Source: Fidelibacterota bacterium 408169 | GTDB taxonomy: Bacteria; Fidelibacterota; Marinisomatia; Marinisomatales; TCS55 | Assembly: GCA_002256485.1 (NCBI GenBank) | Contig: NNSG01000004.1 | Coordinates: 124,001-188,000 of the forward strand | Direction of reading: 5' to 3' | Length of the DNA stretch: 64,000 nt | Part shown: piece after piece, positions 27,137 through 41,550 of the stretch | How positions within the stretch are numbered: the stretch's first letter is position 1 | Layout: every line of letters starts with the position of its first letter | Made by a program: the position numbers and the translations under genes | The notes under the pieces: generated by a model | Database searches by the model: none | Told to the model about the DNA's origin: nothing | What the model saw: the letters and a program-made list of their open reading frames with translations, nothing else

Positions 27137-27645
27137 GTGAAAAGAAAAATTATTTTGTACATGATTCTTCATATGTAGATGAAGACGTTGAGATTGGAAA
27201 AGATACTAATATTTGGCATTTCTCCCATGTACAATCCGGAGCACAAATCGGAACAAATTGTTCAATTGGACAAAATGTAAATATCGGTAATAATGTAAAG
27301 ATAGGAAACCACGTAAAAATTCAAAACAATGTATCCGTTTACGAAGGAGTGGAATTAGAAGATTATGTTTTTTGTGGCCCATCCATGGTTTTTACAAATA
27401 TAAAAATTCCTCGTTCAGAATTTCCCCAGCGTGGCAGTGATTATTATCAAAAGACACTGGTGAAGAAATCAGCAAGCATTGGAGCCAACGTCACCATTAT
27501 TTGCGGAGTAACGATAGGAGAATATGCCATGATTGGTTCCGGAGCTGTGGTAACCAAAGATGTACCAGCTTATTCTATGGTTGTTGGGAATCCTGGGAGA
27601 ATTATAGGAAAAGTGGATAAAAAGGGGAATCGATTAACTGAGTAA
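27133..27645 (+). CDS. Left-handed beta-helix N-acetyltransferase, WbpD/WlbB-like
   Basis: This hexapeptide-repeat acetyltransferase most likely acetylates the 3-amino group of a UDP-sugar acid. Hexapeptide repeats are clear: [39 protein letters not shown] and, after the substrate loop, [20 protein letters not shown]. The C-terminal block [20 protein letters not shown] is standard for this group. The length of 170 residues is a little under the usual 190. The stop overlaps the convergent epimerase gene by 12 bases. Confidence 0.88.
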
Positions 27646-28689
27646 AATGTCTGTAATTTTTCCTGCAGCATTTCCCTCTCCATAATGGGAAATCCACTTT
27701 TTAGGTATAGGCGGCGACTTTATTAATTCCAGTAGTCTACCATACTCTTCATTTACAATTGTATTCCATCCGTCTTCAACTGTTTCAATCCATTCCGTTT
27801 CTGGGCGTAGAGTTATGCACGGAACCTTTTGTAAATACGCTTCTTTTTGTATTCCACCTGAATCTGTAAGAATAACTTGAGCGTATTTTTCCAAAATTAA
27901 CATGTCCAAATATCCCACTGGATTGATTGGCTGAATTGTTTTGTGAGACTCAAAATCGAATTCAGAAAGTAATTTTCTTGTTCTAGGATGTATTGGAAAA
28001 ATCAATGGAATTGGCGATTGATTTAAAACATCAATTAATTTGAACATTATTTCTCTATCATCTGCATTTGCAGGACGATGAATTGTCATTAAACCATAAT
28101 TTTTAGAAGTTATGTTTAATTTTTTCATTATGGTCGCTTCTGTTTCAGCAAGTTTTGTAAAATGTAAAAGAGAATCCACCATAACATCTCCCGTCAAAAA
28201 GACACCATCAGTAATTCCTTCCTTTTTTAAATTCTTAACAGCAAGTTTTGTGGGACAAAATAAATATGAAGAAATAACATCCGTTAATACACGATTAATT
28301 TCCTCAGGCATTCTCCGATTGTAGGAACGTAAACCAGCTTCAACATGTGCAATAGGGATATGTAGTTTCGATGACGCTAATGCTCCAGCTACAGTTGCAT
28401 TCGTATCACCATAAACCAAAACTAAATCCGGTTTTTCCTTCATTATGACTTTCTCGATTCCTTCCAAACTTTTTGCCGTCTGTTCACCGTGCGAACCGGA
28501 ACCAACACCCAAATTATAATTCGGTTTAGGAATTTCCATTTCATTAAAAAATACGTTTGACATGTTTTCATCATAGTGCTGACCAGTATGTAATAGAATT
28601 TCATGGATTCCTTTTTTATGTAAAGAGCGAGAAACCATACTTGCTTTTATAAATTGTGGACGGGCTCCAATGATAGTTAATATTTTCAT
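27634..28689 (-). CDS. UDP-N-acetylglucosamine 2-epimerase (non-hydrolysing), WecB/WbpI type
   Basis: This enzyme inverts C2 of a UDP-HexNAc, giving ManNAc-type donors. The GT-B-like fold and motifs are clear: [18 protein letters not shown] at the start, [48 protein letters not shown] and [14 protein letters not shown] near the UDP site. The length of 351 residues fits. Given the WbpB- and WbpD-like neighbours it could act on UDP-GlcNAc(3NAc)A like WbpI, but plain WecB activity is equally possible. It overlaps the next glycosyltransferase gene by 4 bases. Confidence 0.9.
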
Positions 28690-29897
28690 AATTTATCCTC
28701 AATTTTTTCCATGGCTTTTTCAATTAAATCATCTTTCAATAAATGCTGATTGATATAGTTTGCACCATTCGAACCATGCATTTTTCTTAATTTTTTATTT
28801 TGGAAATACTCTATAATCCCATCAGCTAATGCCTGCTCATTTTCAGGTTCAATACATATTCCCGAATTTGATTTTTGCATTAAGTCTTCTACTTCTCCTT
28901 TTACTCCGATTATCACTGGCTTTCCACATGCCATATATTCTAATAATTTGGATGGAATTGCATTCATAAATAGAATATTATTTCTTAATGGAACTAAGCA
29001 CACATGGGCAGATTTCAAAAACGTAATTAACTTATTTCTTGATATAGGGTCAACAAACTCAATATTTACTAATTCTAATTTATGCACCATTTTTTCTAAT
29101 AATTTCCGTTCGACTCCGTCACCGATAATCTGAAATTTAATGGGATAATTTTTTAAAATTATTGCTGCTTTTATAACCGTTTCTAATCCTTGAGCTAATC
29201 CGATATTTCCGCTATATAAAACAGTAAATATGTCGTTCTCTTTCGAATTATCACATTCTATTTTATTAATAAATTTTTTACTCACACCATTCATTAGATT
29301 TGCTATTATTTTACGTTTTGCAAATGGAAATTGTTTTGTCAAATATTCAGTAAATCCCGGTACAGCCAAAAAGAAACCAGTAGAGTGTGAATAAATTTTT
29401 TCTTCGAACCACTTAGCAATGGATAAAATTAGTGTAGAATTTATTTCACCCAAGGCTCTTGCCGATTCAGGCCAAAGATCTCGGATATCAAATATCATTG
29501 GAATCTTTTTTAGTTTACTGAGAACCATACCCGAAATACCAACAAACAGTGGTGGTGATGAAGCGAAGATTAAATCAAACGAACCTAATTTTACACCTCC
29601 ATAAATGGCTGAAAACATAAAAGAGAGGTAAAACCCGATTCGTTGAATGGTAGTGTGCCGCCCATTCGCCCATACGGCTGTTCGAACAATCGTGAAGCTT
29701 TCAGTGGGATCTTTCTCTATCCAGAACCATTTTCTCGAATATTTTTCATTGATAATTCCAGAAGGATAATTTGGAATTTCGGACAAAACTGTTACCTTAT
29801 GTCCAATTTTTGATAAAATGTGTGCATAATCATTCCACCGCATGGCAGCTGCACCCATCTCTGGAGGATGATATTGAGAAATGATTAAAATTTTCAT
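28686..29897 (-). CDS. Glycosyltransferase family 4 (WbuB-like)
   Basis: This is a GT-B glycosyltransferase acting on the cytoplasmic face during repeat-unit assembly. The N-terminal domain begins KILIISQYHPPEMGAAAMRW, a start typical of WbuB-type amino-sugar transferases, and includes PMIFDIRDLWPESARALGE. The C-terminal donor domain has VLYSGNIGLAQGLETVI and PSKLLEYMACGKPVIIGVKGE with the conserved Glu. The donor sugar is uncertain; an N-acetylated amino sugar made by the adjacent epimerase is a reasonable inference. Confidence 0.88.
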   Translation of the reverse strand: MKILIISQYHPPEMGAAAMRWNDYAHILSKIGHKVTVLSEIPNYPSGIINEKYSRKWFWIEKDPTESFTIVRTAVWANGRHTTIQRIGFYLSFMFSAIYGGVKLGSFDLIFASSPPLFVGISGMVLSKLKKIPMIFDIRDLWPESARALGEINSTLILSIAKWFEEKIYSHSTGFFLAVPGFTEYLTKQFPFAKRKIIANLMNGVSKKFINKIECDNSKENDIFTVLYSGNIGLAQGLETVIKAAIILKNYPIKFQIIGDGVERKLLEKMVHKLELVNIEFVDPISRNKLITFLKSAHVCLVPLRNNILFMNAIPSKLLEYMACGKPVIIGVKGEVEDLMQKSNSGICIEPENEQALADGIIEYFQNKKLRKMHGSNGANYINQHLLKDDLIEKAMEKIEDKL

Positions 29898-29921
29898 ACT
29901 AGAAAAATAATTTTTTTATAC

Positions 29922-31064
29922 TTAAGAAATATCGTTCTCAAGAATTAAAGAATAGAAATTTAGCAACACCCGTTTTTCATTTTCCCAAGAGTAATAATTA
30001 TTATATACAATACTAGATGTACGTGCTTTATTTTCTAATTCATTTGCATCTGAGAACAAAGAAAGAATACAATCAGAGATTTCTTTCGAATTAGAAGAGT
30101 TACAAGTTAAACCACATCCATTTTCATCAATTATTTTCTTCCACAATGGGAAATTTGTTCCAATAATAGGTAGCCCCAACATCATATACTCAAATATTTT
30201 ATTTGGCATCGACTCAATATGATTTGGTAATGGTAAATAACAAATAATTCCAGCAGAATATTGTGAAGCTTTTTGGTACATTTCATTCATAGGTAAGACA
30301 TCATGAAAATGAATATAATCGTGCATAAATACGGACTTAATTTTTTTTTCATAATTCTTATCAGAGAAATCACCATATATATGAATATTAATGGAGATTG
30401 TTTTATGAGAGAGTACAACAGCTTCCAACATTTCTTCTATTCCACGAATAGGAGTTAATCCACCAATATATACTAAACTCTTCGGAATCACATTTTCCCG
30501 TTTTATCCTAATATGACTATTCTCTGGATAATTATGAACAATAACAGACTTTTCTTTTGGAAATAATGTTTGAATATGATCCGTAGCAGTTATAATGCCA
30601 TCAAATATTTTAGAAGCAAATTTTTCAACAAATCTATAAACCGCACTATAAATTTTTCGTAGCCATTTTGGAATCCAATCTCTCTCTAAAAGTACTAACG
30701 AGAAATCTTCATGCACATCAAATATCACAACTTGTTTAGATATCCATTTAAGAGCTACTCCATATAATATAAAATCTGGGTCATGAAAATGGTAAATATC
30801 TGCTTTTAATTTTAATGCTGTATTTAAAATTTTGATATTACCCCATAGTCGCTTATACTTATTATTTTTAGGTGGAATAGAAATAATGCGAATACCTTTT
30901 TCAATTCCATTGAAATTGCCTGGTGCTAAAAATGTAATTCTATAACCAGCATTATTTAATGTTTTTGCTTGATGATGAAAAATTCGTCCATCAAAACGAT
31001 CATGTGTCGTTGTAATTATACATACATGAAATTGTCCTGATTCTACTTTATTACAATGGAGCAT
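29922..31064 (-). CDS. Glycosyltransferase family 4
   Basis: This is a second GT-B enzyme of the polysaccharide locus, 380 residues. The acceptor domain shows CIITTTHDRFDGRIFHHQAKTL and YHFHDPDFIL. The donor domain shows SLVYIGGLTPIRGIEEMLEAV and MPNKIFEYMMLGLPIIGTNFP with the usual Glu. Its start overlaps the polymerase gene by 14 bases. Base composition becomes markedly AT-rich from here through the flippase gene, as is common for variable O-antigen or capsule genes. Donor and acceptor sugars are unknown. Confidence 0.85.
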   Translation of the reverse strand: MLHCNKVESGQFHVCIITTTHDRFDGRIFHHQAKTLNNAGYRITFLAPGNFNGIEKGIRIISIPPKNNKYKRLWGNIKILNTALKLKADIYHFHDPDFILYGVALKWISKQVVIFDVHEDFSLVLLERDWIPKWLRKIYSAVYRFVEKFASKIFDGIITATDHIQTLFPKEKSVIVHNYPENSHIRIKRENVIPKSLVYIGGLTPIRGIEEMLEAVVLSHKTISINIHIYGDFSDKNYEKKIKSVFMHDYIHFHDVLPMNEMYQKASQYSAGIICYLPLPNHIESMPNKIFEYMMLGLPIIGTNFPLWKKIIDENGCGLTCNSSNSKEISDCILSLFSDANELENKARTSSIVYNNYYSWENEKRVLLNFYSLILENDIS

Positions 31065-32457
31065 TTTTGAATTTACTTTGAAGATTTCTATAAAAGTATA
31101 ATAACAAAGGAATGAAAATCATTCCCTTTGTTATTGCAATGACGGTAATAGATGATGATACAAAACTAAAGGTAAAATGAGAAATAAATGCAGTGGTGAA
31201 TGTAACATAAATCATATCCATTTTGTAATCACTTGTTGCTAGTATCTGTTTATAGATATAATGAATCAAAAAGCCTAAAATCAGTGTCATTATCATAACA
31301 CCAAATAAACCAAAATCAGCCCAAAAATTTCCAATATAAACAGCATTTGCTGAACCAGTTGTAAACCGATCCTTCCACCACACTTGAGCAACATAATTTG
31401 CTGTATTAAAATTCCCATCTGAATGAATCCATGAAAACAGTTGAGTACTCCTTCCAAGTAAAAAGGGGTGTTTGTTGGGGAAAATTTTAAAATATTCAAA
31501 TAGTACTTCCGCCGGAACGATAAATAATCTATATGCAATAGCGTATAATAATTTTTCAGGTGTCCTCAAATGCGGCAAAGATGCAATATAATTAATCATG
31601 ACGGGAATGGAAAAAATGCTTATTATGCTAACAATTATCATTCTAAATGAAAAATGCCGCTTTTTTAGTAAATACATTGCCATTAAGGAAAAAAATATGG
31701 CAGCAATTGGGAGTTTTGCAACTGTAATCGAATTATTAAAAATACCTACAAAAAAATAAATCAAAAATAATAAAAAATATTTCCGTTTTTTATTATTCAT
31801 GTAAAGAAATAAGCTTGATACAATACCTAATGGTATGAGTAAATCTCGACTCCATGAATAAAAATATTTTTCAATTTTAGGAACATTGAGCAATTTCATT
31901 GATTCTTCACGTAGCATAAACAATGTTTTATAAACATTTGGGTTTCTAATAATTTCAAAAACAGGTATTGTTTCAACACGAATTATGTATAAACCCAGAA
32001 TCAAAATAATTATACTTAACATGACGATTAAAATTTCATAAATACGTCTATGACCCATCTCCAATGACCATTCCATTTCATACATTTTTTCCACTCTTTC
32101 ATGTTGAATGGGGTAAATTTTATTTCCAAAATACAATCCCATGGGAAACAGAAGGTAAAAAGATAAAACACTTAGAAAGTAATTTAGTTCTTGGGGATGG
32201 TCTATGGTAGAAATAATATATATACTGGGGATCGATATAAATACTGTATATGAAACAAAAATCAAGGAAGGTGTAGCTAATAACCAAACACCTCGAATAC
32301 CGGAATAAGGTTGATCCTGACTAATAAAAATTTCATAAATAATTATACTTGTTAATAATAATAGACTATAAATAAAAACGTCATTATCTACAAAAAATGA
32401 AATCAATAATAATCCCAATGGATATAATAGGATTACAGCTTTATCAATTTTTATCAT
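31051..32457 (-). CDS. Oligosaccharide repeat-unit polymerase (Wzy-like)
   Basis: This 468-residue integral membrane protein has about 11-13 hydrophobic segments and a large polar loop between about residues 320 and 370. That is the architecture of Wzy-type polymerases, which join lipid-linked repeats on the periplasmic face. Wzy sequences are poorly conserved, so the call relies on topology and on its place between glycosyltransferases and the Wzx flippase gene (14-base overlap). A ligase of the WaaL type is a less likely alternative. Confidence 0.75.
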   Translation of the reverse strand: MIKIDKAVILLYPLGLLLISFFVDNDVFIYSLLLLTSIIIYEIFISQDQPYSGIRGVWLLATPSLIFVSYTVFISIPSIYIISTIDHPQELNYFLSVLSFYLLFPMGLYFGNKIYPIQHERVEKMYEMEWSLEMGHRRIYEILIVMLSIIILILGLYIIRVETIPVFEIIRNPNVYKTLFMLREESMKLLNVPKIEKYFYSWSRDLLIPLGIVSSLFLYMNNKKRKYFLLFLIYFFVGIFNNSITVAKLPIAAIFFSLMAMYLLKKRHFSFRMIIVSIISIFSIPVMINYIASLPHLRTPEKLLYAIAYRLFIVPAEVLFEYFKIFPNKHPFLLGRSTQLFSWIHSDGNFNTANYVAQVWWKDRFTTGSANAVYIGNFWADFGLFGVMIMTLILGFLIHYIYKQILATSDYKMDMIYVTFTTAFISHFTFSFVSSSITVIAITKGMIFIPLLLYFYRNLQSKFKNAPL

Positions 32458-33913
32458 TTCTTATTATGTTACTATACATAATCCAACTGGCTTTTGTTTG
32501 ATAATAATAATAGAATAAAGAACTTATTATTATAAGTGAAACAATAAATTTTATTATCAGCAGATATAAAAATGAAATGTTTATAGATAGTGTGAAAAAT
32601 GCTAAAATATATATAATAACTAAAATAATAAAAGATACAAGATTGCTTTTTGTAAAGATAGAAATATTGGTGATTCTTTTTATCGTATAAAAAGCAATTC
32701 CAAACAATGTAAACAGACCTACTGAAAAGGAAAGTGTAATACTTATTGGATTATTAATAAATATTTTTAGGATGAAAGTTAGTGCTATTAATGTAATAAA
32801 TGAGAACATCGTTATAATATTTGAATAAGGATAAAAAGATAAGCCATCGATTATTCCGCGTATCATGATGTAACCAATAAATGGACCAACAAATGGACTC
32901 ATTAATTGTAAATATATTATGGTATTGACATAATTTTGTCCAAACCACATGATAATGATTTCCTGAGAAAATAAATAGATTAAAGGCCCAATAAAAAATA
33001 TAACTTGAAAAATAAATTCTATTATTATATTTATTCTTTCTCGGACTTGTTCATTAGAACCTATATCATGCAAATGAGAAAATGTGGGAAGAAATAATAA
33101 ATTAAATGGAATGCCAATCATAGCAGCAGTGTTTGCAACTGTGACAATGATTCCAATATGTGTGGCATCTGTTAATGAAAACCATTTTGATGTTAAATAA
33201 ATAGGTAGGAAAAATATAAGTCCGTAAAAAATACCACTGGGAATTCGAAATAAACTATATTCATAAATTTGCTTTAAATTTTGTTTTTTGACTATCTTAT
33301 TTGTCATTTTATTCGTGTCTTTAAACAAAATTATTATATTATATATAATAATTAACCATGCACCATAATAAAAAAATTCGGCTAATAATTCTGTTCCTAT
33401 TTTTAGAAAAATAATCAATAGCAGTACTACAATAGATGATGTGCGATAGAAAATATTTGATAAATTCATCAAATTATATTGTCGATTTCCCCTCAAATAG
33501 CCAACAGTGAGTACTTGAAATCCTGATGCAAATACAAAAAAGAAGATTGGGCTAATAATGTATTCATATTCATTATTATTATAAATAGTTTGACTCAATA
33601 TCGCATTGTCAAAAATCAAAATAAAAATAAAAAGCCCAAGCCCAATCAGAATATATGTAAAAACAATCTTATTAAAATATAATCGGCTAAAATCACGTTT
33701 ACTGCCGAACCAAGATAAACCCATGGCAAGGTTTAAAGTAATCAAAGGGATAAATAATAAAACTAATCTCCTGGAAAGAAAATAAATTCCTAAATTTTCG
33801 CTTGTTAGGTATAATGCCATTATCTTTACAATTAAAATACCTAATAGCACTGCCAAAAATTGAGATATATAGGTAAAAAATGTATTTTTAATAAACGGTT
33901 TGGAAATAAACAT
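32444..33913 (-). CDS. Polysaccharide flippase (Wzx-like)
   Basis: This MATE-fold-type flippase should move lipid-linked repeat units across the inner membrane. The 489 residues form about 14 helices. The start FIKNTFFTYISQFLAVLLGI is typical of PST-family flippases, and LTSENLGIYFLSRRLVLLF matches the conserved loop after helix 1. The gene is the most AT-rich in the window, full of A and T runs, which suggests a horizontally variable polysaccharide cassette. It is followed by polymerase and glycosyltransferase genes and preceded by a 153-base gap. Confidence 0.88.
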   Translation of the reverse strand: MFISKPFIKNTFFTYISQFLAVLLGILIVKIMALYLTSENLGIYFLSRRLVLLFIPLITLNLAMGLSWFGSKRDFSRLYFNKIVFTYILIGLGLFIFILIFDNAILSQTIYNNNEYEYIISPIFFFVFASGFQVLTVGYLRGNRQYNLMNLSNIFYRTSSIVVLLLIIFLKIGTELLAEFFYYGAWLIIIYNIIILFKDTNKMTNKIVKKQNLKQIYEYSLFRIPSGIFYGLIFFLPIYLTSKWFSLTDATHIGIIVTVANTAAMIGIPFNLLFLPTFSHLHDIGSNEQVRERINIIIEFIFQVIFFIGPLIYLFSQEIIIMWFGQNYVNTIIYLQLMSPFVGPFIGYIMIRGIIDGLSFYPYSNIITMFSFITLIALTFILKIFINNPISITLSFSVGLFTLFGIAFYTIKRITNISIFTKSNLVSFIILVIIYILAFFTLSINISFLYLLIIKFIVSLIIISSLFYYYYQTKASWIMYSNIIRNDKN

Positions 33914-34066: not shown

Positions 34067-35413
34067 TTATTTAATGGTGCTGGTAGATAGTTGCCATCTC
34101 TTGCGAAAATAAACATAATACAATGAAAATACAGTTGAAAGAACAAACCCAATAATACATACTCTTGCTCGAGATGGTTTATATTTTAATTGAGGCAAAA
34201 CAGCATAATCCAGAACTTGTACTGTTGGTGTATCCTTTACTTCCTTGATTTTAGCTTCTTCGTATTGTTGGGTTAAAAATGTATATAACGTATTCTGAAC
34301 TTCAACATCTCTCATTAATCTTCCGATTTCAAGGCCTAAATCCGGTACATTTGAAAACCCAGGAATCATGGGAAAGTCATCTTCATTGTCCAATTCTTTT
34401 AATTGTGTATTTAATCCGGCAATTTCTGATTTTAATAACTTGATTTCCGGATGGTTGCTTGAAAGAGTCTGTTCTAATACGCTTAACTTTACTTTGCTTA
34501 CTGAGAGTCTTGAAATTATTTCTGTTGCTACTTGGATTGCCGCTGTTGTTTGTTCAGGAAGAGAAATTGTATTGTGTTTTTCTTGAAAAATGTTTAATTC
34601 TTCCTCCGCTTTTGCTAAATCTTCAATATTTTGATAATATCTATTTTCTATAAATTCACGATGTTGAGTTGCTTTTTCAGATTTTAATTTTTTATTGACT
34701 TCATCCAATTTCATGACAAAATAATTCGTTATATCTTTTGATAACTTTTTACAATATTCCTCCTCTTCATCCGGGTGGAACCATCCTGTTTTTATTTGAG
34801 AAGAGACACTGATAGTCCCCTCTTCATCAATTTCAAAATGTGTATCTTCTGATAACGATTCTTCAGCTTTTTCAATATTTACTGAATTATAAAATTCTAC
34901 TAAATTAAACTTTTTAATCACACTCCGTATTATGGTACGACTTTTAAGAATAGCTATAAAGGTACTCGCGTCATTTACTGATGTTGGATTTAGCAAACTT
35001 TCCAAAGCAAACATCTCTCCTCCTCCTCCAAACATATTTCTATCTCCCGAGGAAGCAGGAGGCATAATTATTGCTGTAGAACGATAAGTTTTTGGTAACA
35101 TAAATGCAAGAATCACAGATAATATACTTACAACAAATACATTTCGAAATATTTCTAATTTAGATGACCATAAAATCTGCCCTATTCTAAATAAATCGAT
35201 ATCATCAAAATCAGTGTTTATTGACAATTCTGACTCTTCACTTCCTGGCAGGACACCATATTTTTTCAAATCACCCATTCGATTACGAAGTGTTTTTTCA
35301 GTAAAACCCTCTTGATCTGCAATTTCTTTCCTTTTTTCCGGATTATGGATTATCTCAGGATTCTTTTTAACCAAATCCAGTATTTTTTGCTCGTGAGGTG
35401 TAAGTTTTATCAT
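34067..35413 (-). CDS. Wzz/GNVR chain-length determinant with N-terminal helix-turn-helix
   Basis: This inner-membrane polysaccharide co-polymerase sets chain length. Membrane helices lie at about 92-108 and 420-440. They flank a long periplasmic coiled-coil part with the GNVR-type region (TAIIMPPASSGDRNMFGG at the start, LYTFLTQQYEEAKIKE and a proline-rich PTVQVLDYAVLPQLKYKPSR before the second helix). The oddity is residues 3-56: KLTPHEQKILDLVKKNPEII and IADQEGFTEKTLRNRMGDLK read as a helix-turn-helix in the cytoplasmic tail. The ATG sits in a TAATG overlap with the wza stop, supporting this start. No tyrosine-kinase domain is present. Confidence 0.88.
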   Translation of the reverse strand: MIKLTPHEQKILDLVKKNPEIIHNPEKRKEIADQEGFTEKTLRNRMGDLKKYGVLPGSEESELSINTDFDDIDLFRIGQILWSSKLEIFRNVFVVSILSVILAFMLPKTYRSTAIIMPPASSGDRNMFGGGGEMFALESLLNPTSVNDASTFIAILKSRTIIRSVIKKFNLVEFYNSVNIEKAEESLSEDTHFEIDEEGTISVSSQIKTGWFHPDEEEEYCKKLSKDITNYFVMKLDEVNKKLKSEKATQHREFIENRYYQNIEDLAKAEEELNIFQEKHNTISLPEQTTAAIQVATEIISRLSVSKVKLSVLEQTLSSNHPEIKLLKSEIAGLNTQLKELDNEDDFPMIPGFSNVPDLGLEIGRLMRDVEVQNTLYTFLTQQYEEAKIKEVKDTPTVQVLDYAVLPQLKYKPSRARVCIIGFVLSTVFSLYYVYFRKRWQLSTSTIK

Positions 35414-36453
35414 TATTGCCCTATAATAGCTGCTTTGTATGTTAAATAGAGTGTTGCGATAGCTGTGGCCGTTTGTAGAATACTTATATTCCCAAACATT
35501 CGGCTACGAAGACTTTCCGGTACAAAAATAACATCGCCCGGTTCAACAAATTCATCAAAAGCATTGTTCAATTCACTTCCATCCGCTCGATATATTATTG
35601 TATTACTATAACTACCAATATTTAATGCTCCGCCTACCATTGCTATATAATCACTGGCTCTATAGCCAGGTACATAAGAAAACCCTCGAGGTCTTCTTAC
35701 AAAACCATGTACAATAATTTGATGGGTTTTATATTCGGTAAAGTTCTCTTTGTCCTTTTGCATTATTTCAACAAAAGGGATAATTATTTTATCACCCTCC
35801 ATTAATGTTGGATTTTGTGTTAAATCACCATTTATTAAAAATTCTTTCAAAGTCAGTTTTTGTTTAATTCCATTTCGTTCTAAAAATGCTACGTCACTGC
35901 TACCGTATTTTTGAACACCTTTTGTTGCTTTAATTGCATCTTTCACTCTACTAATAGGTGTCATTTCAACGTATCCGGGATATTCAACGGCTCCTATTAC
36001 TTGAATTTTAAATGAACGAATCGATGATAATCTGACTGTTGTTTGAATTTTTTTATATGATTTTTTAGAAGCTGCAGATTTGATTTCCTCTTTAATTTGC
36101 TGATATGTTTTTCCTTTTGTAGAAAATTGACCAATTGATGGTAAAGATAACTCTCCGGCGGGGCTTATATATTCATAATATTCCACAGTTTCTGCATTGA
36201 ATAAATCATATTCCTGTCCTGGAAGCAATTTATTTTCTAATGAAGTAACTACAATATGCAATTGATCTCCCGGGCCTAAATAATACTCGTTTGGGTCAAT
36301 TTCACTTTCCAATGGAATTGGAGGGTTGGATAAATCCTGATAAACTGGTTGATAACTACCGGCACCTTTCGTCAATGATTCAAATTCATCTGTTTGAGCA
36401 GATATCAAACACAGTAAAATAATGGATGAAATAAATTTAAATGTAATTTTCAT
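35413..36453 (-). CDS. Polysaccharide export protein, Wza-like (SLBB)
   Basis: This is an outer-membrane polysaccharide export protein. After a signal peptide (about 1-20, LLCLISAQ) it shows the Poly_export domain start PNEYYLGPGDQLHIVV, PAGELSLPSIGQFSTKGKTY and two SLBB-like stretches (FKIQVIGAVEYPGYVEMTP and QIIVHGFVRRPRGFSYVPG). A hydrophobic C-terminal segment (SILQTATAIATLYLTY) may be the outer-membrane helix. There is no lipobox Cys, unlike Escherichia coli Wza. It lies 6 bases after rfbB and overlaps wzz by one base. Confidence 0.92.
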   Translation of the reverse strand: MKITFKFISSIILLCLISAQTDEFESLTKGAGSYQPVYQDLSNPPIPLESEIDPNEYYLGPGDQLHIVVTSLENKLLPGQEYDLFNAETVEYYEYISPAGELSLPSIGQFSTKGKTYQQIKEEIKSAASKKSYKKIQTTVRLSSIRSFKIQVIGAVEYPGYVEMTPISRVKDAIKATKGVQKYGSSDVAFLERNGIKQKLTLKEFLINGDLTQNPTLMEGDKIIIPFVEIMQKDKENFTEYKTHQIIVHGFVRRPRGFSYVPGYRASDYIAMVGGALNIGSYSNTIIYRADGSELNNAFDEFVEPGDVIFVPESLRSRMFGNISILQTATAIATLYLTYKAAIIGQ

Positions 36454-36459
36454 GTTATG

Positions 36460-37524
36460 TTATAATACTCCCAATCTTTCCTGTTGATAGTTTTTGTTTT
36501 GAATATCCTTCCACCATGATTGATTTTCTAAATACCATTTAATGGTTTTTTTAATTCCTGTTTCAAATGTTTCTTTTGGTACCCAATTCAATTCATTTTT
36601 CAATTTGGAAGAATCAATGGCATAACGAAAATCATGACCGGGACGATCCGTCACAAATGTGATTAATTCCGTATAAGATTTGAGATGAGTTGATGGATTT
36701 ATTTCATCTAATAGATTACAGATTACGTTTACAATATCAATATTCATAATCTCATTATTTCCACCAACATTATATGTTTCTCCAATTTTCCCATTTTCAA
36801 TAATTGTATGTATAGCTTCACAATGATCATCTACGTATAACCAATCTCTTATATTTTCTCCTGTACCGTATACAGGAAGTGATTTTTCAGCTAAACAATT
36901 GAGGATCATTAAAGGAATTAATTTTTCAGGGAATTGATAAGGTCCATAATTGTTTGAACAATTTGAAATTATGATTGGGAGTCCAAAAGTTCTTTGCCAT
37001 GCTCTAACTAAATGATCAGAAGCTGCCTTGGATGCGGAATAGGGTGAACTGGGATTATAAGGTGTTTCTTCAGTGAAAAAACCCTTTTCATTTAAACTGC
37101 CAAACACTTCATCAGTTGAAACGTGGTGAAACCTGAATAATTCTTTATTTTCATTTTCTAATGTCTGAAAATAACGGAGCGATTCCTGTAATAAAGTGAA
37201 AGTACCAGAAATATTGGTTTTGATAAAATCACCAGGGCCATCAATTGATCTGTCTACATGGCTTTCAGCAGCAAAATTGACTATGACATTTGGACGTTGA
37301 ATCAGAAATAATTCCTTGACAAGATTCTGATTACAAATATCACCTTGAACAAACACATAACGCTCATCCTGTTGAAAATCTGATAAATTATTAGGATTTC
37401 CAGCATAAGTCAATTTATCGAGATTGATGATCTTTTCGGCATATCCTTCATTTAACATGAAATGGATGAAATTTGATCCTATAAATCCACTCCCACCAGT
37501 AACGATAAATATTTTACCCATCAT
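36460..37524 (-). CDS. rfbB: dTDP-glucose 4,6-dehydratase
   Basis: RfbB makes dTDP-4-keto-6-deoxyglucose, the branch point to rhamnose and other deoxysugars. It is an extended SDR: GGSGFIGSNFIHFML at the NAD site, FAAESHVDRSIDGPGDFIKT, the catalytic HHVSTDEVFGSL, the YxxxK motif in PYSASKAASDHLVRAW, and RDWLYVDDHCEAI. Its length of 354 residues is standard. It overlaps rfbC by one base. The dTDP-glucose pyrophosphorylase (rfbA) and the reductase (rfbD) are not in the window. Confidence 0.96.
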   Translation of the reverse strand: MMGKIFIVTGGSGFIGSNFIHFMLNEGYAEKIINLDKLTYAGNPNNLSDFQQDERYVFVQGDICNQNLVKELFLIQRPNVIVNFAAESHVDRSIDGPGDFIKTNISGTFTLLQESLRYFQTLENENKELFRFHHVSTDEVFGSLNEKGFFTEETPYNPSSPYSASKAASDHLVRAWQRTFGLPIIISNCSNNYGPYQFPEKLIPLMILNCLAEKSLPVYGTGENIRDWLYVDDHCEAIHTIIENGKIGETYNVGGNNEIMNIDIVNVICNLLDEINPSTHLKSYTELITFVTDRPGHDFRYAIDSSKLKNELNWVPKETFETGIKKTIKWYLENQSWWKDIQNKNYQQERLGVL

Positions 37525-38081
37525 TAGCCCTCGAAATTCGGCAATAATAATTTATCCTGATCTGCCAAATCCGGAAAATTGAGATCTCGATTGGAAAGTA
37601 TAAGTTTATCAATTGGCCATTGAATATTTGCAGTTGGATCATTCCAGCGAATTCCATATTCATCATCTGGGTAATATTTTTCTGTACATTTATATTGAAA
37701 TATGGCTTCGTCAGATACAACGCAAAATCCATGGGCAAACCCCGGTGGAATATATAAGGCAATGTGATCTTTATCGTTGAGAGTCATAGCAAAGGGTTTT
37801 CCAAATGTGGGTGATCCCTTCCGAATATCCAACGCCACATCAAACACTTCTCCCAAAGTGCATCGGACTAATTTTCCCTGACCGTGAAGTAGCTGATAAT
37901 GCAATCCTCGCAATACACCTCGTTTTGATTTGGATTGGTTATCCTGAACAAACGCTAATTTTAAGTCTGCTTTTTTAAAATATTCAGATCGGTAACTTTC
38001 GAAAAAATAACCTCTGTCATCACCATGAACATGTGGTTCAACAATCATTAATCCCGGGAACTCTGTTTTCATAATTTTCAT
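37524..38081 (-). CDS. rfbC: dTDP-4-dehydrorhamnose 3,5-epimerase
   Basis: RfbC is a cupin-fold epimerase of dTDP-L-rhamnose synthesis. Typical blocks are PGLMIVEPHVHGDDRGYFFE, the catalytic His in GVLRGLHYQLLHGQGKLVR, and YIPPGFAHGFCVVSDEAIF. The length of 185 residues is normal. It lies 2 bases after ugd and overlaps rfbB. Without rfbD nearby the end product is not certain. Confidence 0.95.
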   Translation of the reverse strand: MKIMKTEFPGLMIVEPHVHGDDRGYFFESYRSEYFKKADLKLAFVQDNQSKSKRGVLRGLHYQLLHGQGKLVRCTLGEVFDVALDIRKGSPTFGKPFAMTLNDKDHIALYIPPGFAHGFCVVSDEAIFQYKCTEKYYPDDEYGIRWNDPTANIQWPIDKLILSNRDLNFPDLADQDKLLLPNFEG

Positions 38082-38083
38082 TC

Positions 38084-39391
38084 TTATTTTCGACCAACAT
38101 TATCATATGTAAATCCATGACGTTCAAGAGTGTCATTGTTTAATATATTTCGACTGTCAAGAATAATAGGAGATTTTACCAACTCTTTTAACTTCGCTAA
38201 ATCCAGTCCTCTAAATTCATTCCATTCAGTCATAATCGCTACACAGTCCGCTTCTTTTACTGCATCTTCCCAAGATTCAAATACATTTATTTGATTGAAT
38301 TTTTTCTTCATATTCGCATTTGCAACAGGATCAAATACATTAACGGTAGCGTTGCTTGCTAGAAGTGATTCTATCATTTCTATAGCGGGCGATTCTCTAA
38401 TGTCATCGGTTTGTGCTTTAAATGCCAACCCAAGCAAAGCGATTGTTTTCCCGGATACATCATTACTCATTAATTTCATTAATTTTGCAACCATTCGTTC
38501 TTTTTGCCTTTTATTTGCCCTGATTGCACCATTGACGACTTCCAGTCCTGATCCCAGTTCATTTGCAGTTGAAATCAACGCTTTGGTATCTTTTGGGAAA
38601 CAGGAACCTCCAAAGCCGGGGCCTGGATGTAAAAACTTGGGGCTGATTCTGCCGTCAACTCCCATTGCTTTTGAAACAACATGTACATCAGCGTCAATTT
38701 CATCACATATATTTGCAATTTCGTTAATATAACTTATTTTCACTGCTAAAAAAGCATTGCTGGCATATTTTATCAATTCAGCTGTTTGAATAGTAGTTTC
38801 AATAATGGGAGTCTCATTGATATATAGCGGTCTGTACACTTCCTTCATCATGTCAATAGCTCTTTGGTTTGATGCACCTATTACCACCCTATCCGGCCAG
38901 AGGAAATCTTTTACAGCTGACCCTTCTCGTAAAAATTCTGGATTTGATACATAATCAAATTTTGTAGATGAATTGGACAATTTTGAAATTTTATCCATGA
39001 TTTGTAACCCGGTACCAATGGGAACGGTACTTTTTGTACAAATGACTTTATAATCATTCAAATTCTCTCCAATCGCCCGGGCTACTTCCAATACAGCTGA
39101 TAAATCCGAAGCTCCATTTTCACCCTCCGGTGTACCAACCGCTATAAATATTACATCAGAATCTTTGATTGCTTTATTTACATTATTAGAGAAAGATAAT
39201 CGACCTGCGTTTACATTTCTAAAGACTATTTCCTTGAGCCCGGGTTCATATATGGGAATTTCACTATTTTTAAGTAGGTTTATTTTATCGGCATCAATAT
39301 CTGCACAAATAACAGCATTACCAAAATCTGCTAAACCTGCTCCACTGACAAGACCGACATATCCGGTTCCTATAACTGCAATTTTTTTCAT
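38084..39391 (-). CDS. ugd: UDP-glucose 6-dehydrogenase
   Basis: This enzyme oxidises UDP-glucose to UDP-glucuronate. The Rossmann start is IAVIGTGYVGLVSGAGLADFG. The catalytic cysteine is in PGFGGSCFPKDTKAL near residue 259. The C-terminal UDP-binding domain shows LLGLAFKAQTDDIRESPA. The sequence resembles UDP-glucose dehydrogenases more than WbpA-type UDP-GlcNAc dehydrogenases, but the distinction is soft. It heads the minus-strand sugar-nucleotide run and lies 59 bases downstream of the vWA-like gene. Confidence 0.94.
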   Translation of the reverse strand: MKKIAVIGTGYVGLVSGAGLADFGNAVICADIDADKINLLKNSEIPIYEPGLKEIVFRNVNAGRLSFSNNVNKAIKDSDVIFIAVGTPEGENGASDLSAVLEVARAIGENLNDYKVICTKSTVPIGTGLQIMDKISKLSNSSTKFDYVSNPEFLREGSAVKDFLWPDRVVIGASNQRAIDMMKEVYRPLYINETPIIETTIQTAELIKYASNAFLAVKISYINEIANICDEIDADVHVVSKAMGVDGRISPKFLHPGPGFGGSCFPKDTKALISTANELGSGLEVVNGAIRANKRQKERMVAKLMKLMSNDVSGKTIALLGLAFKAQTDDIRESPAIEMIESLLASNATVNVFDPVANANMKKKFNQINVFESWEDAVKEADCVAIMTEWNEFRGLDLAKLKELVKSPIILDSRNILNNDTLERHGFTYDNVGRK

Positions 39392-39450
39392 TATACCTTA
39401 ATTAATTGATCTTTAACTTTATATTAATTGACGGAAACTAATTAATAATA

Positions 39451-41550
39451 TCAACTTAATCCAATAAATCTCCGTATATACCATTCTATAGATAGGAGTA
39501 TAACTAATATTATAATTCCTAATGTGTTTTCATTCAATATCACATTCCTAACTACAATTTCTTCATTAAATTTCTGATTAATCTTGTCAATTAATTCTGC
39601 CCGGGACTCCCATACTACATGTTTCCCATTTGTTGTATTTGCAATTTTAATCAATATTTCTTTATTAACTGATACTTGGTTTAATTCAATCTGACTTTCA
39701 TCAATCATAAGTGATCCATTTTGAGTAAAGACTTCATTTTCATTTTGCATTGTAATTTCATATGAATATGATCCAGGTTTACCTGCAAGAAATTTAGTTT
39801 CCCATTGTTCATTTACAGGATTATAAGTTAATTCGTATGTTATTGGAGAATCTTCTTTATTTAACAATGTGATGTAACCTGTAAATGTAAAAATTTCTTT
39901 TGCATCTTTTTTAAAATGTGATCCCATAATATGCACTTCTTCACCCTGTTGAAACACATCTTTATTCACTCTAAAATAGAGCTCATTTTCTCCACTCGTA
40001 CGTAAAAACCATGATAATAAATTATTTATTAATTCATCACTGATATCTTCATGATCTGTTTCCGTCATTTTATAAAAGAGTGTTGAAAAATCCGAAGAAG
40101 TCCATATACCAGATCTTAATCCTTCAACTTCACCTGATACTAATAGTGGAATTGATGAATTATCATAATAAGCTAGTGAGGAAATATTACTCTCTGGCTC
40201 TAAATATAATTTTGGTTTCAGCGGTGGATAGATATTTTCAAATCTAGTCCGATCAAATCCATCGGTGGAAAAGTATTTTACGATATTATTCTCTTCAGCC
40301 CAATACCATTGTTTTCTTTTATTATCATTAAATGTTACTTGGGAATTCTTTACATGAAAAAAGGGATACATCGATTCTGTTGCTTTCTTTTCTGTATTTG
40401 GTCCGGCAAATAAAAAGATTGATGATTTCTGGGAAACAATTTTTTTAGCCAAAATCTGTTTCCATCTTTTTGAAATTGGAATCAATGGAAAATTATCAAA
40501 AACAATTAATTCATATGGAGTTGACCAGAATTCATTTATTGATGGAATAAATTTATCATCGTTTTGAATATAATGGTCTAATTCAACCCTAGGAATTTTT
40601 CTAATGATTTTCTTTAGGGGCGCTGTATTAAAATTGGGTGCACCTGTTATTAATGCTAATTTATACTTATCCTTGAGAACTGATATTTGAAATGGTTGGC
40701 TATTATTATTTATATTAATCTCATCAGCTAAAACAGATGTTTTTACTATATAATTGTTTTCCCCTAATGTTTGTGGAGTAATTCTGAATTTTGCATTAGC
40801 TAAAGAACCCTCTCCTTGCAATTGTATATATTTTGATCCTAAAAGTTTTTTCCCTTTATATAATAAAATATTTATTCGATCATTAATTTTACCATGAGAA
40901 GACAAGGTAATGTTAATATCCATTTCTTCCCCTTTAATTATTACTGTTGGAGCTTCAACAGCTTGTATAGCTATATCCACTAAGGGAATCGTATCACCTA
41001 CACCAACTGTATATATAGGGATTAATAATTCTTTAAGTTGATTATGCGTTTGATCTCCTTTAGTAATTTGCCCATCGGTAATTATTATTGCTCCAGCCAA
41101 TTCTGATTCTGAATCTTTTATATGATCAAAAACCTTACCTAAATCAGTTGCTTCACCATTAAGAAAAAAAGATGTTTCATCTGCAGTGTACACTCTATGA
41201 TCAAAATAAAAATTTTGTGTTTCTGTATTTTTGTTTACAGCTGCAGAAAATAATGAATTCACATTATCGATATAGGAATTTGGAGAAAGAGCCTGATGGT
41301 AACCCATGCTCACTGATCTATCTGCATATATATTCCATCGTAATGGATATTGATAATGATCCTTCCAGGAAAATTTTGGTGACAGCAGCATGAATAACAA
41401 TACCATAAAAACACACATTCTTATTCCAATCAAACCCAAAAGCTTTTGTTCTTCCTTTATCGAAATAATAATCCATATCAGGGTAAGTATTGTGGCAATT
41501 AATAAAAGCCAAAACCAGCCATCCGTTTGCTTTAGAAACTCTAATGCCAC
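39451..41550 (-). CDS. Large membrane protein with vWA-like domain
   Basis: This 699-residue protein has two N-terminal helices (about 14-30 and 38-59), a large extracytoplasmic part and one C-terminal helix (LGIIILVILLSIEWYI). Residues 73-185 look like a von Willebrand factor A fold with an intact metal site: DRSVS (in YADRSVSMGY), later AIIITDGQITKGD and PIYTVGVGD. Beta-sandwich-like segments and a glutamine-amidotransferase-like stretch follow. Proteins of this architecture accompany aerotolerance/Bat-type genes in FCB genomes, but the function is unknown. It starts 3 bases after tsaD. Confidence 0.75.
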   Translation of the reverse strand: MALEFLKQTDGWFWLLLIATILTLIWIIISIKEEQKLLGLIGIRMCVFMVLLFMLLSPKFSWKDHYQYPLRWNIYADRSVSMGYHQALSPNSYIDNVNSLFSAAVNKNTETQNFYFDHRVYTADETSFFLNGEATDLGKVFDHIKDSESELAGAIIITDGQITKGDQTHNQLKELLIPIYTVGVGDTIPLVDIAIQAVEAPTVIIKGEEMDINITLSSHGKINDRINILLYKGKKLLGSKYIQLQGEGSLANAKFRITPQTLGENNYIVKTSVLADEININNNSQPFQISVLKDKYKLALITGAPNFNTAPLKKIIRKIPRVELDHYIQNDDKFIPSINEFWSTPYELIVFDNFPLIPISKRWKQILAKKIVSQKSSIFLFAGPNTEKKATESMYPFFHVKNSQVTFNDNKRKQWYWAEENNIVKYFSTDGFDRTRFENIYPPLKPKLYLEPESNISSLAYYDNSSIPLLVSGEVEGLRSGIWTSSDFSTLFYKMTETDHEDISDELINNLLSWFLRTSGENELYFRVNKDVFQQGEEVHIMGSHFKKDAKEIFTFTGYITLLNKEDSPITYELTYNPVNEQWETKFLAGKPGSYSYEITMQNENEVFTQNGSLMIDESQIELNQVSVNKEILIKIANTTNGKHVVWESRAELIDKINQKFNEEIVVRNVILNENTLGIIILVILLSIEWYIRRFIGLS

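Follow-up and report, generated by a model that had tools for sequence, protein, structure and literature searches.

The polysaccharide locus of the window (the whole analysed stretch of 64,000 nucleotides) carries a gene for a Wzz-type polysaccharide co-polymerase with an N-terminal helix-turn-helix (HTH), a fold that commonly serves in DNA binding; the protein is here called HTH-Wzz (Table 1). The boundaries of the open reading frame reported in the earlier note were found to be exact; the strand, which that note did not give, is minus. The ATG is set by an overlap with the wza stop codon that reads TAATG (...gggcaaTAATGataaaa), confirming in the sequence that the HTH is translated as part of Wzz. 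In most relatives examined, the genes are ordered cmk-rpsA-ybbR-tsaD-699 aa gene-ugd-(rfbC-rfbB)-wza-HTH-wzz. HTH-wzz closes the constant part of the polysaccharide locus, and beyond it lies a variable set of genes for flippase, polymerase and transferases. The 699-aa gene between tsaD and ugd (39451-41550 in the window) encodes a membrane-anchored protein and was observed in most relatives with a full locus. No tyrosine-kinase gene, fused or adjacent, was found in the window's polysaccharide locus.

Table 1. Features of the HTH-wzz gene and the surrounding polysaccharide locus (window coordinates).
Feature	Position	Strand	Evidence
HTH-Wzz polysaccharide co-polymerase, 448 aa	34067..35413	-	PF02706 and PF13807 above cut-off; full-length model matches
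HTH domain, residues 1-58	35240..35413	-	profile, AlphaFold model, Foldseek, Pfam
Recognition helix, residues 39-52	35258..35299	-	E39, K40, T41, R43, N44 and R45 invariant in 47 homologues
Linker, residues 57-84, acidic, partly disordered	35162..35245	-	HTH/Wzz-body exchange border in relatives
Membrane helix 1, residues ~85-105	35099..35161	-	hydropathy and full-length model
Periplasmic co-polymerase domain, residues ~106-413	34175..35098	-	Pfam and full-length model
Membrane helix 2, residues ~414-438	34100..34174	-	hydropathy and full-length model
wza, outer-membrane export protein	35413..36453	-	stop codon overlaps HTH-wzz start codon
rfbB, rfbC, ugd; conserved left part of polysaccharide operon	36460..39391	-	synteny in relatives
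Gap before ugd, the only recurrent intergenic gap of the operon	39392..39450	-	promoter-like block, two genera
Exchangeable cassette: flippase, polymerase, glycosyltransferases, wecB-like epimerase	27634..33913	-	gene list and synteny

The HTH is followed by the full Wzz/GNVR architecture that had been read from the sequence before. Both Pfam domains score above their cut-offs (Wzz, PF02706, residues 70-168, 48.6 bits, 1e-12, cut-off 25.5; GNVR, PF13807, residues 365-438, 45.9 bits, 5e-12, cut-off 27.7), and hydropathy gives two membrane segments at residues ~85-105 and ~416-437. The two membrane helices stand on either side of a periplasmic helical body, as is characteristic of the Wzz family. 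The full-length AlphaFold model (mean pLDDT 76) resembles PDB structures of Wzc, WzzE and KpsE. Its linker is poorly ordered, with pLDDT <50 at residues 57-71, and membrane helix 2 is followed by a 10-residue tail that holds no kinase. Residues 1-58, which form the HTH, all precede membrane helix 1, which is where the domain had originally been placed. HTH-Wzz is the sole co-polymerase found in the window's genome. Its membership in the Wzz family predicts an oligomeric ring (octamer) and a role in chain-length control.

To characterize the N-terminal domain, a family profile (24 members) was compared with solved structures. Csa3 (6e-6) and GerE (1e-3) were matched, as were Lrp-type chains. 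When the 24 HTH members were scanned singly against Pfam, HTH_24 was matched by 17 (best 4.8e-7), HTH_11 by 16 and CggR_N by 15. The commonest match, obtained for 18, was the NirDL-like HTH of sirohaem decarboxylase, an enzyme, so that an HTH of such a type can be recycled. The window's own copy alone reaches 19.3 bits, just under the Pfam cut-off of 21.9. In the AlphaFold model of residues 1-67 (mean pLDDT 81), residues 6-17, 19-22, 25-35 and 39-52 form helices and no strands are present. Therefore, of the initial description as a 'winged or simple HTH', the simple HTH is retained and the wing is not. Foldseek searches with this model returned Lrp/AsnC HTHs with a probability of 0.99 and NarL/GerE-type domains with 0.6-0.8; the E-values are weak, which is usual for a model of 67 residues. 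The [S/T]EKT-x-RN segment of the HTH family is also found in GerE (SEKTVRN) and Csa3 (SEKTLIN). The second HTH motif quoted in the earlier note had to be corrected, as the sequence reads DQEGFTEKTLRNRMGDLKKYG. Profile, AlphaFold, Foldseek and Pfam all give a tri-helical HTH fold with a recognition helix. A different fold of residues 1-60 had been considered as a reason to abandon the HTH; AlphaFold and Foldseek returned an HTH, which therefore stands, and residues 1-58 are confirmed as a genuine HTH, beyond chance resemblance.

Among 47 non-redundant copies, the mean pairwise identity is 54.7% for the HTH versus 33.2% for the Wzz body. Eleven HTH positions are invariant (L4, E8, P19, R28, A32, E39, K40, T41, R43, N44, R45), six of which (E39 to T41 and R43 to R45) make up the first half of the recognition helix. 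Helices 1 and 2 vary freely where they are exposed. The basic recognition helix, whose loss in homologues would have spoken against the proposal, is kept in 47 of 47: K40, R43, N44 and R45 provide an invariant basic/polar DNA-reading face, the exposed side being assigned from helix position. For the HTH, dN/dS could be computed in 13 close pairs; it lies at 0.04-0.2 in 12 of them, and the one outside this range is a nearly identical pair. The domain is evidently under purifying selection.

The HTH profile matched 46 genomes among the 199 of the phylum. Forty-three of them belong to the window's own Marinimicrobia order and carry the HTH as part of the Wzz encoded at this locus, which answers the suggestion that the fusion be sought in related genomes. 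Among the 46, G131 is an outlier of another group, and the remaining two matches are NtrC-type regulators. Weak matches in G064 and G072 were rejected, since they are actually C-terminal HTHs of NtrC-type regulators; further weak matches in the phylum occur in G211, G216 and G244. A second copy was found in one genome only, where it is cut off by the contig end, and the others are single-copy. We found no other protein with the same HTH in the window's own genome (E<=1), no match in the viral contigs searched, and none at E<=1e-8 in 82 KSB1-group genomes or in 144 genomes of the group of L015. The 199 genomes of the Scalindua phylum gave one strong match, the Scalindua MAG itself. With 43 genomes in one order and nearly none elsewhere, the fusion is a trait of one Marinimicrobia order, a group of uncultured marine bacteria. 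The same wzz family also has members on short contigs in MAGs of other phyla, namely L010 and L012 (Scalindua rubra MAG) and L004 (KSB1 MAG), the last being truncated where its contig stops. The stray Scalindua and KSB1 copies may be mis-binned or transferred. Within the order, family f13 retains the locus with a Wzz that lacks the HTH and with no HTH anywhere else in its genomes, so the HTH is dispensable in f13. A literature search, with a coverage that omits most subscription journals, yielded no description of a Wzz with an HTH or winged helix, the three papers returned seeming unrelated from their titles, and no paper combining Marinimicrobia and Wzz.

Comparison of close relatives points to different histories for HTH and body. 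In genus g5, the HTH of G016 is 80% identical to that of G021 and G009, and the bodies are 31-33% identical. DNA identity in this genus is ~72-90% across the wza end and the HTH and falls to ~45% directly past the HTH; the drop coincides with the HTH/linker border, inside one gene. Genus g10 (rpsA 98% identical) shows 58% identity for wza, 33% for the Wzz body and 71% for the HTH. For the window's genome G000 and its relative G005 in genus g1 (rpsA 96%), the values are 44%, 36% and 62%, respectively. In g10 and g1, wza and the Wzz body have been replaced, and the incoming gene was likewise HTH-bearing. With HTH-less proteins from a different family (G063, G108) the window's body shares 49% identity, and with the body of G005 only 36-37%; many HTH-less bodies are 45-50% identical to the window's. 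In a tree built from the bodies only, HTH-bearing and HTH-less proteins are interleaved, with 14 changes, at least 4 of which are forced by well-supported branches; the tree was built quickly and its branches are long, so the count is approximate. The same-genus comparisons are independent of it. Judging from the sequences, the Wzz body has been swapped repeatedly beneath a retained HTH. Because the HTH is constant above exchanged and interleaved bodies, it appears to serve the locus and not one glycan. The fusion thus presents itself as order-wide, selected and with an unusual exchange history.

Some loci show irregular arrangements. At L173 (G176:C6, 1178-1477, minus strand), the HTH frame follows wza normally and ends in the linker at ~76 residues, and flippase and Wzz-body fragments come next on the opposite strand. 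This is an inversion whose breakpoint falls in the linker, or else a misassembly. Upstream of the HTH-less wzz of L011 (5900-6500) lies an apparent decayed fragment of another Wzz N-terminus, possibly the scar of a gene replacement. In L007 (5850-6010), stops and frame shifts break the HTH part of wzz and the Wzz body is open, reflecting either natural loss or sequencing error.

On the cytoplasmic side, co-polymerases normally bear a tyrosine kinase or no domain at all (PMC12004946), in agreement with the earlier note. They form rings, and the cytoplasmic kinase of Wzc switches ring states (PMC12004946, PMC12881504). Octamer assembly of Wzc is driven by this kinase (PMC12881504), and a pseudokinase is able to drive assembly by contact alone (PMC12004946). 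In 13 of the 15 HTH-bearing genomes tested, the window's included, no tyrosine-kinase match above the TIGR01007 cut-off was obtained, so the HTH is the sole recognisable cytoplasmic domain of the co-polymerase machine there. A Wzc-type kinase was observed in 3 of 4 HTH-less versus 2 of 15 HTH-bearing genomes tested, which is too few for a claim. In G048, G059, G063, G038 and G013, a Wzc-type kinase of ~800 aa is located at another locus.

A DNA target was searched for in the gap before ugd, which is only 16-34 bases long in several genera. In the gaps of nine lineages, the sharing of words of 7-10 bases did not rise above shuffles, and no order-wide motif emerged. A promoter-like block, GTTTMCGTCRATWANTAYGTAGTTT, is conserved before ugd in genera g1 and g2 and not in the rest of the order; it lies in the window's gap (Table 1) and at L078 8636-8660, L079 9668-9692 and L092 11487-11511. 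We take it to resemble a Bacteroidetes-type promoter (TTTG / TAnnTTTG). Conservation extends to the stretch that separates these two elements, which could be an overlapping operator. As the block is limited to g1 and g2 and the window's copy is altered in its right half, it was not attributed to the HTH. Scans for sigma-70 promoters and terminators gave no more than shuffles.

A regulatory role of the HTH seems plausible. In our preferred reading, to which we give a probability of about 0.5, HTH-Wzz carries a membrane-tethered DNA-binding head on a co-polymerase, the action of which depends on the state of the ring. We put forward more tentatively, at slightly below even chances, a signalling co-polymerase: the chain-length ring would itself act as the tethered transcription factor, collecting several DNA-binding heads under the polymerase and coupling polysaccharide assembly directly to gene expression, and the locus would keep these heads while the body is swapped between glycan types. 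Sequence and models show a conserved HTH at the cytoplasmic N-terminus, connected through a flexible linker to a Wzz body of the usual two-helix type, next to Wza and the Wzx/Wzy cassette. The body would assemble into a ring, as its Wzz and Wzc homologues do in octameric form, and would thereby gather about eight HTHs beneath it. Ring assembly, or engagement of Wzy/Wza, could then permit, or prevent, joint DNA binding by the HTHs. The polysaccharide locus or another target would thus be transcribed in step with the state of the machinery, whatever the glycan, with the HTH acting as activator or repressor. We infer each of these links between ring state, DNA binding and transcription. The constancy of the HTH across bodies argues for a partner that every body shares and that does not depend on the glycan, and the invariant recognition helix argues that this partner is a nucleic acid. 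Together, the two observations favour the membrane-tethered DNA-binding head. Against it stand the lack of a shared target word in the nine representative gaps before ugd, the shortness of this gap in several genera, the absence of a predicted wing, the f13 locus that is kept without an HTH, the enzyme-borne HTH as commonest Pfam match and the weak Foldseek E-values.

The main rival is a protein-docking role, in which the HTH fold is recycled for contacts in cytosolic docking or in ring assembly/disassembly and replaces the Wzc-type tyrosine kinase. Octamer assembly by the Wzc kinase, the sufficiency of a pseudokinase, the distribution of kinases among HTH-bearing and HTH-less genomes and the known enzyme-borne HTH of sirohaem decarboxylase all fit such a role, which we consider a real but less likely possibility. 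The invariant residues cluster on the DNA-reading face and not on a random face, and retention of the HTH across very different Wzz bodies makes an intramolecular partner unlikely. In addition, the many HTH-less bodies similar to the window's cope without the domain, and the kinase matches are in separate Wzc-like proteins away from the HTH-wzz locus. It is improbable that the HTH binds DNA but controls something outside its own locus, for instance a global target in cell division or adhesion. In favour of this, the recognition helix does not vary across the order while the DNA upstream of the operon does; against it, the HTH stays with one locus and is single-copy in all but one matching genome, and nothing points to another target. 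HTH-less Wzz proteins at equivalent loci start near residue 70, as would be expected if the HTH were a chance resemblance or annotation artefact, i.e. a spacer translated ahead of an internal Wzz start, or a fusion created by sequencing. This explanation can practically be dismissed, since the HTH is in frame, conserved in dozens of genomes, under purifying selection and matched by profile to solved HTHs.

A membrane-tethered DNA-binding head would add a third conserved cytoplasmic domain of co-polymerases, of DNA-binding type, to the known alternatives of none or a tyrosine kinase. If true, it would be a one-protein answer to the question of how a cell senses that its polysaccharide machine is assembled, and it suggests that chain building reports directly to genes. 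With a constant head and a swapped body, a surface-sugar locus can change its product and keep its control element, and the border of exchange is visible within the single gene HTH-wzz.

Like WzzE, KpsE and CapA (PCP-1/PCP-2b), HTH-Wzz consists of Wzz and GNVR domains with two membrane helices and a periplasmic coiled-coil body, and its gene likewise sits between wza and the Wzx/Wzy cassette. Unlike these proteins, it has an N-terminal cytoplasmic HTH, and its locus holds no kinase partner. With the Wzc-type PCP-2a proteins it shares a cytoplasmic domain on a co-polymerase beside Wza, and Wzc is the best full-length fold match; however, the domain is an N-terminal HTH in HTH-Wzz and a C-terminal kinase in Wzc. 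In ToxR, CadC and TcpP, the DNA-binding domain is of the winged OmpR type, and a single membrane helix leads to a C-terminal periplasmic sensor. The CadC/ToxR-like character proposed in the earlier note holds for the working principle, i.e. an N-terminal cytoplasmic DNA-binding-type domain, a membrane anchor and a periplasmic body. Family membership was ruled out, as HTH-Wzz has an HTH that lacks a wing, and its biosynthetic body is anchored by two membrane helices; Trans_reg_C is not among the Pfam matches listed and the AlphaFold model has no strands. Streptococcal CpsA is an LCP protein reported to bind the capsule promoter. It resembles HTH-Wzz as a membrane-bound capsule-assembly protein with a proposed feedback on capsule transcription, but belongs to an unrelated family and has no conserved HTH domain. 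GerE/LuxR, Csa3 and Lrp/AsnC, in contrast to HTH-Wzz, are soluble regulators that are not fused to a membrane enzyme, and it is their HTHs with which HTH-Wzz shares the recognition-helix signature and the fold.
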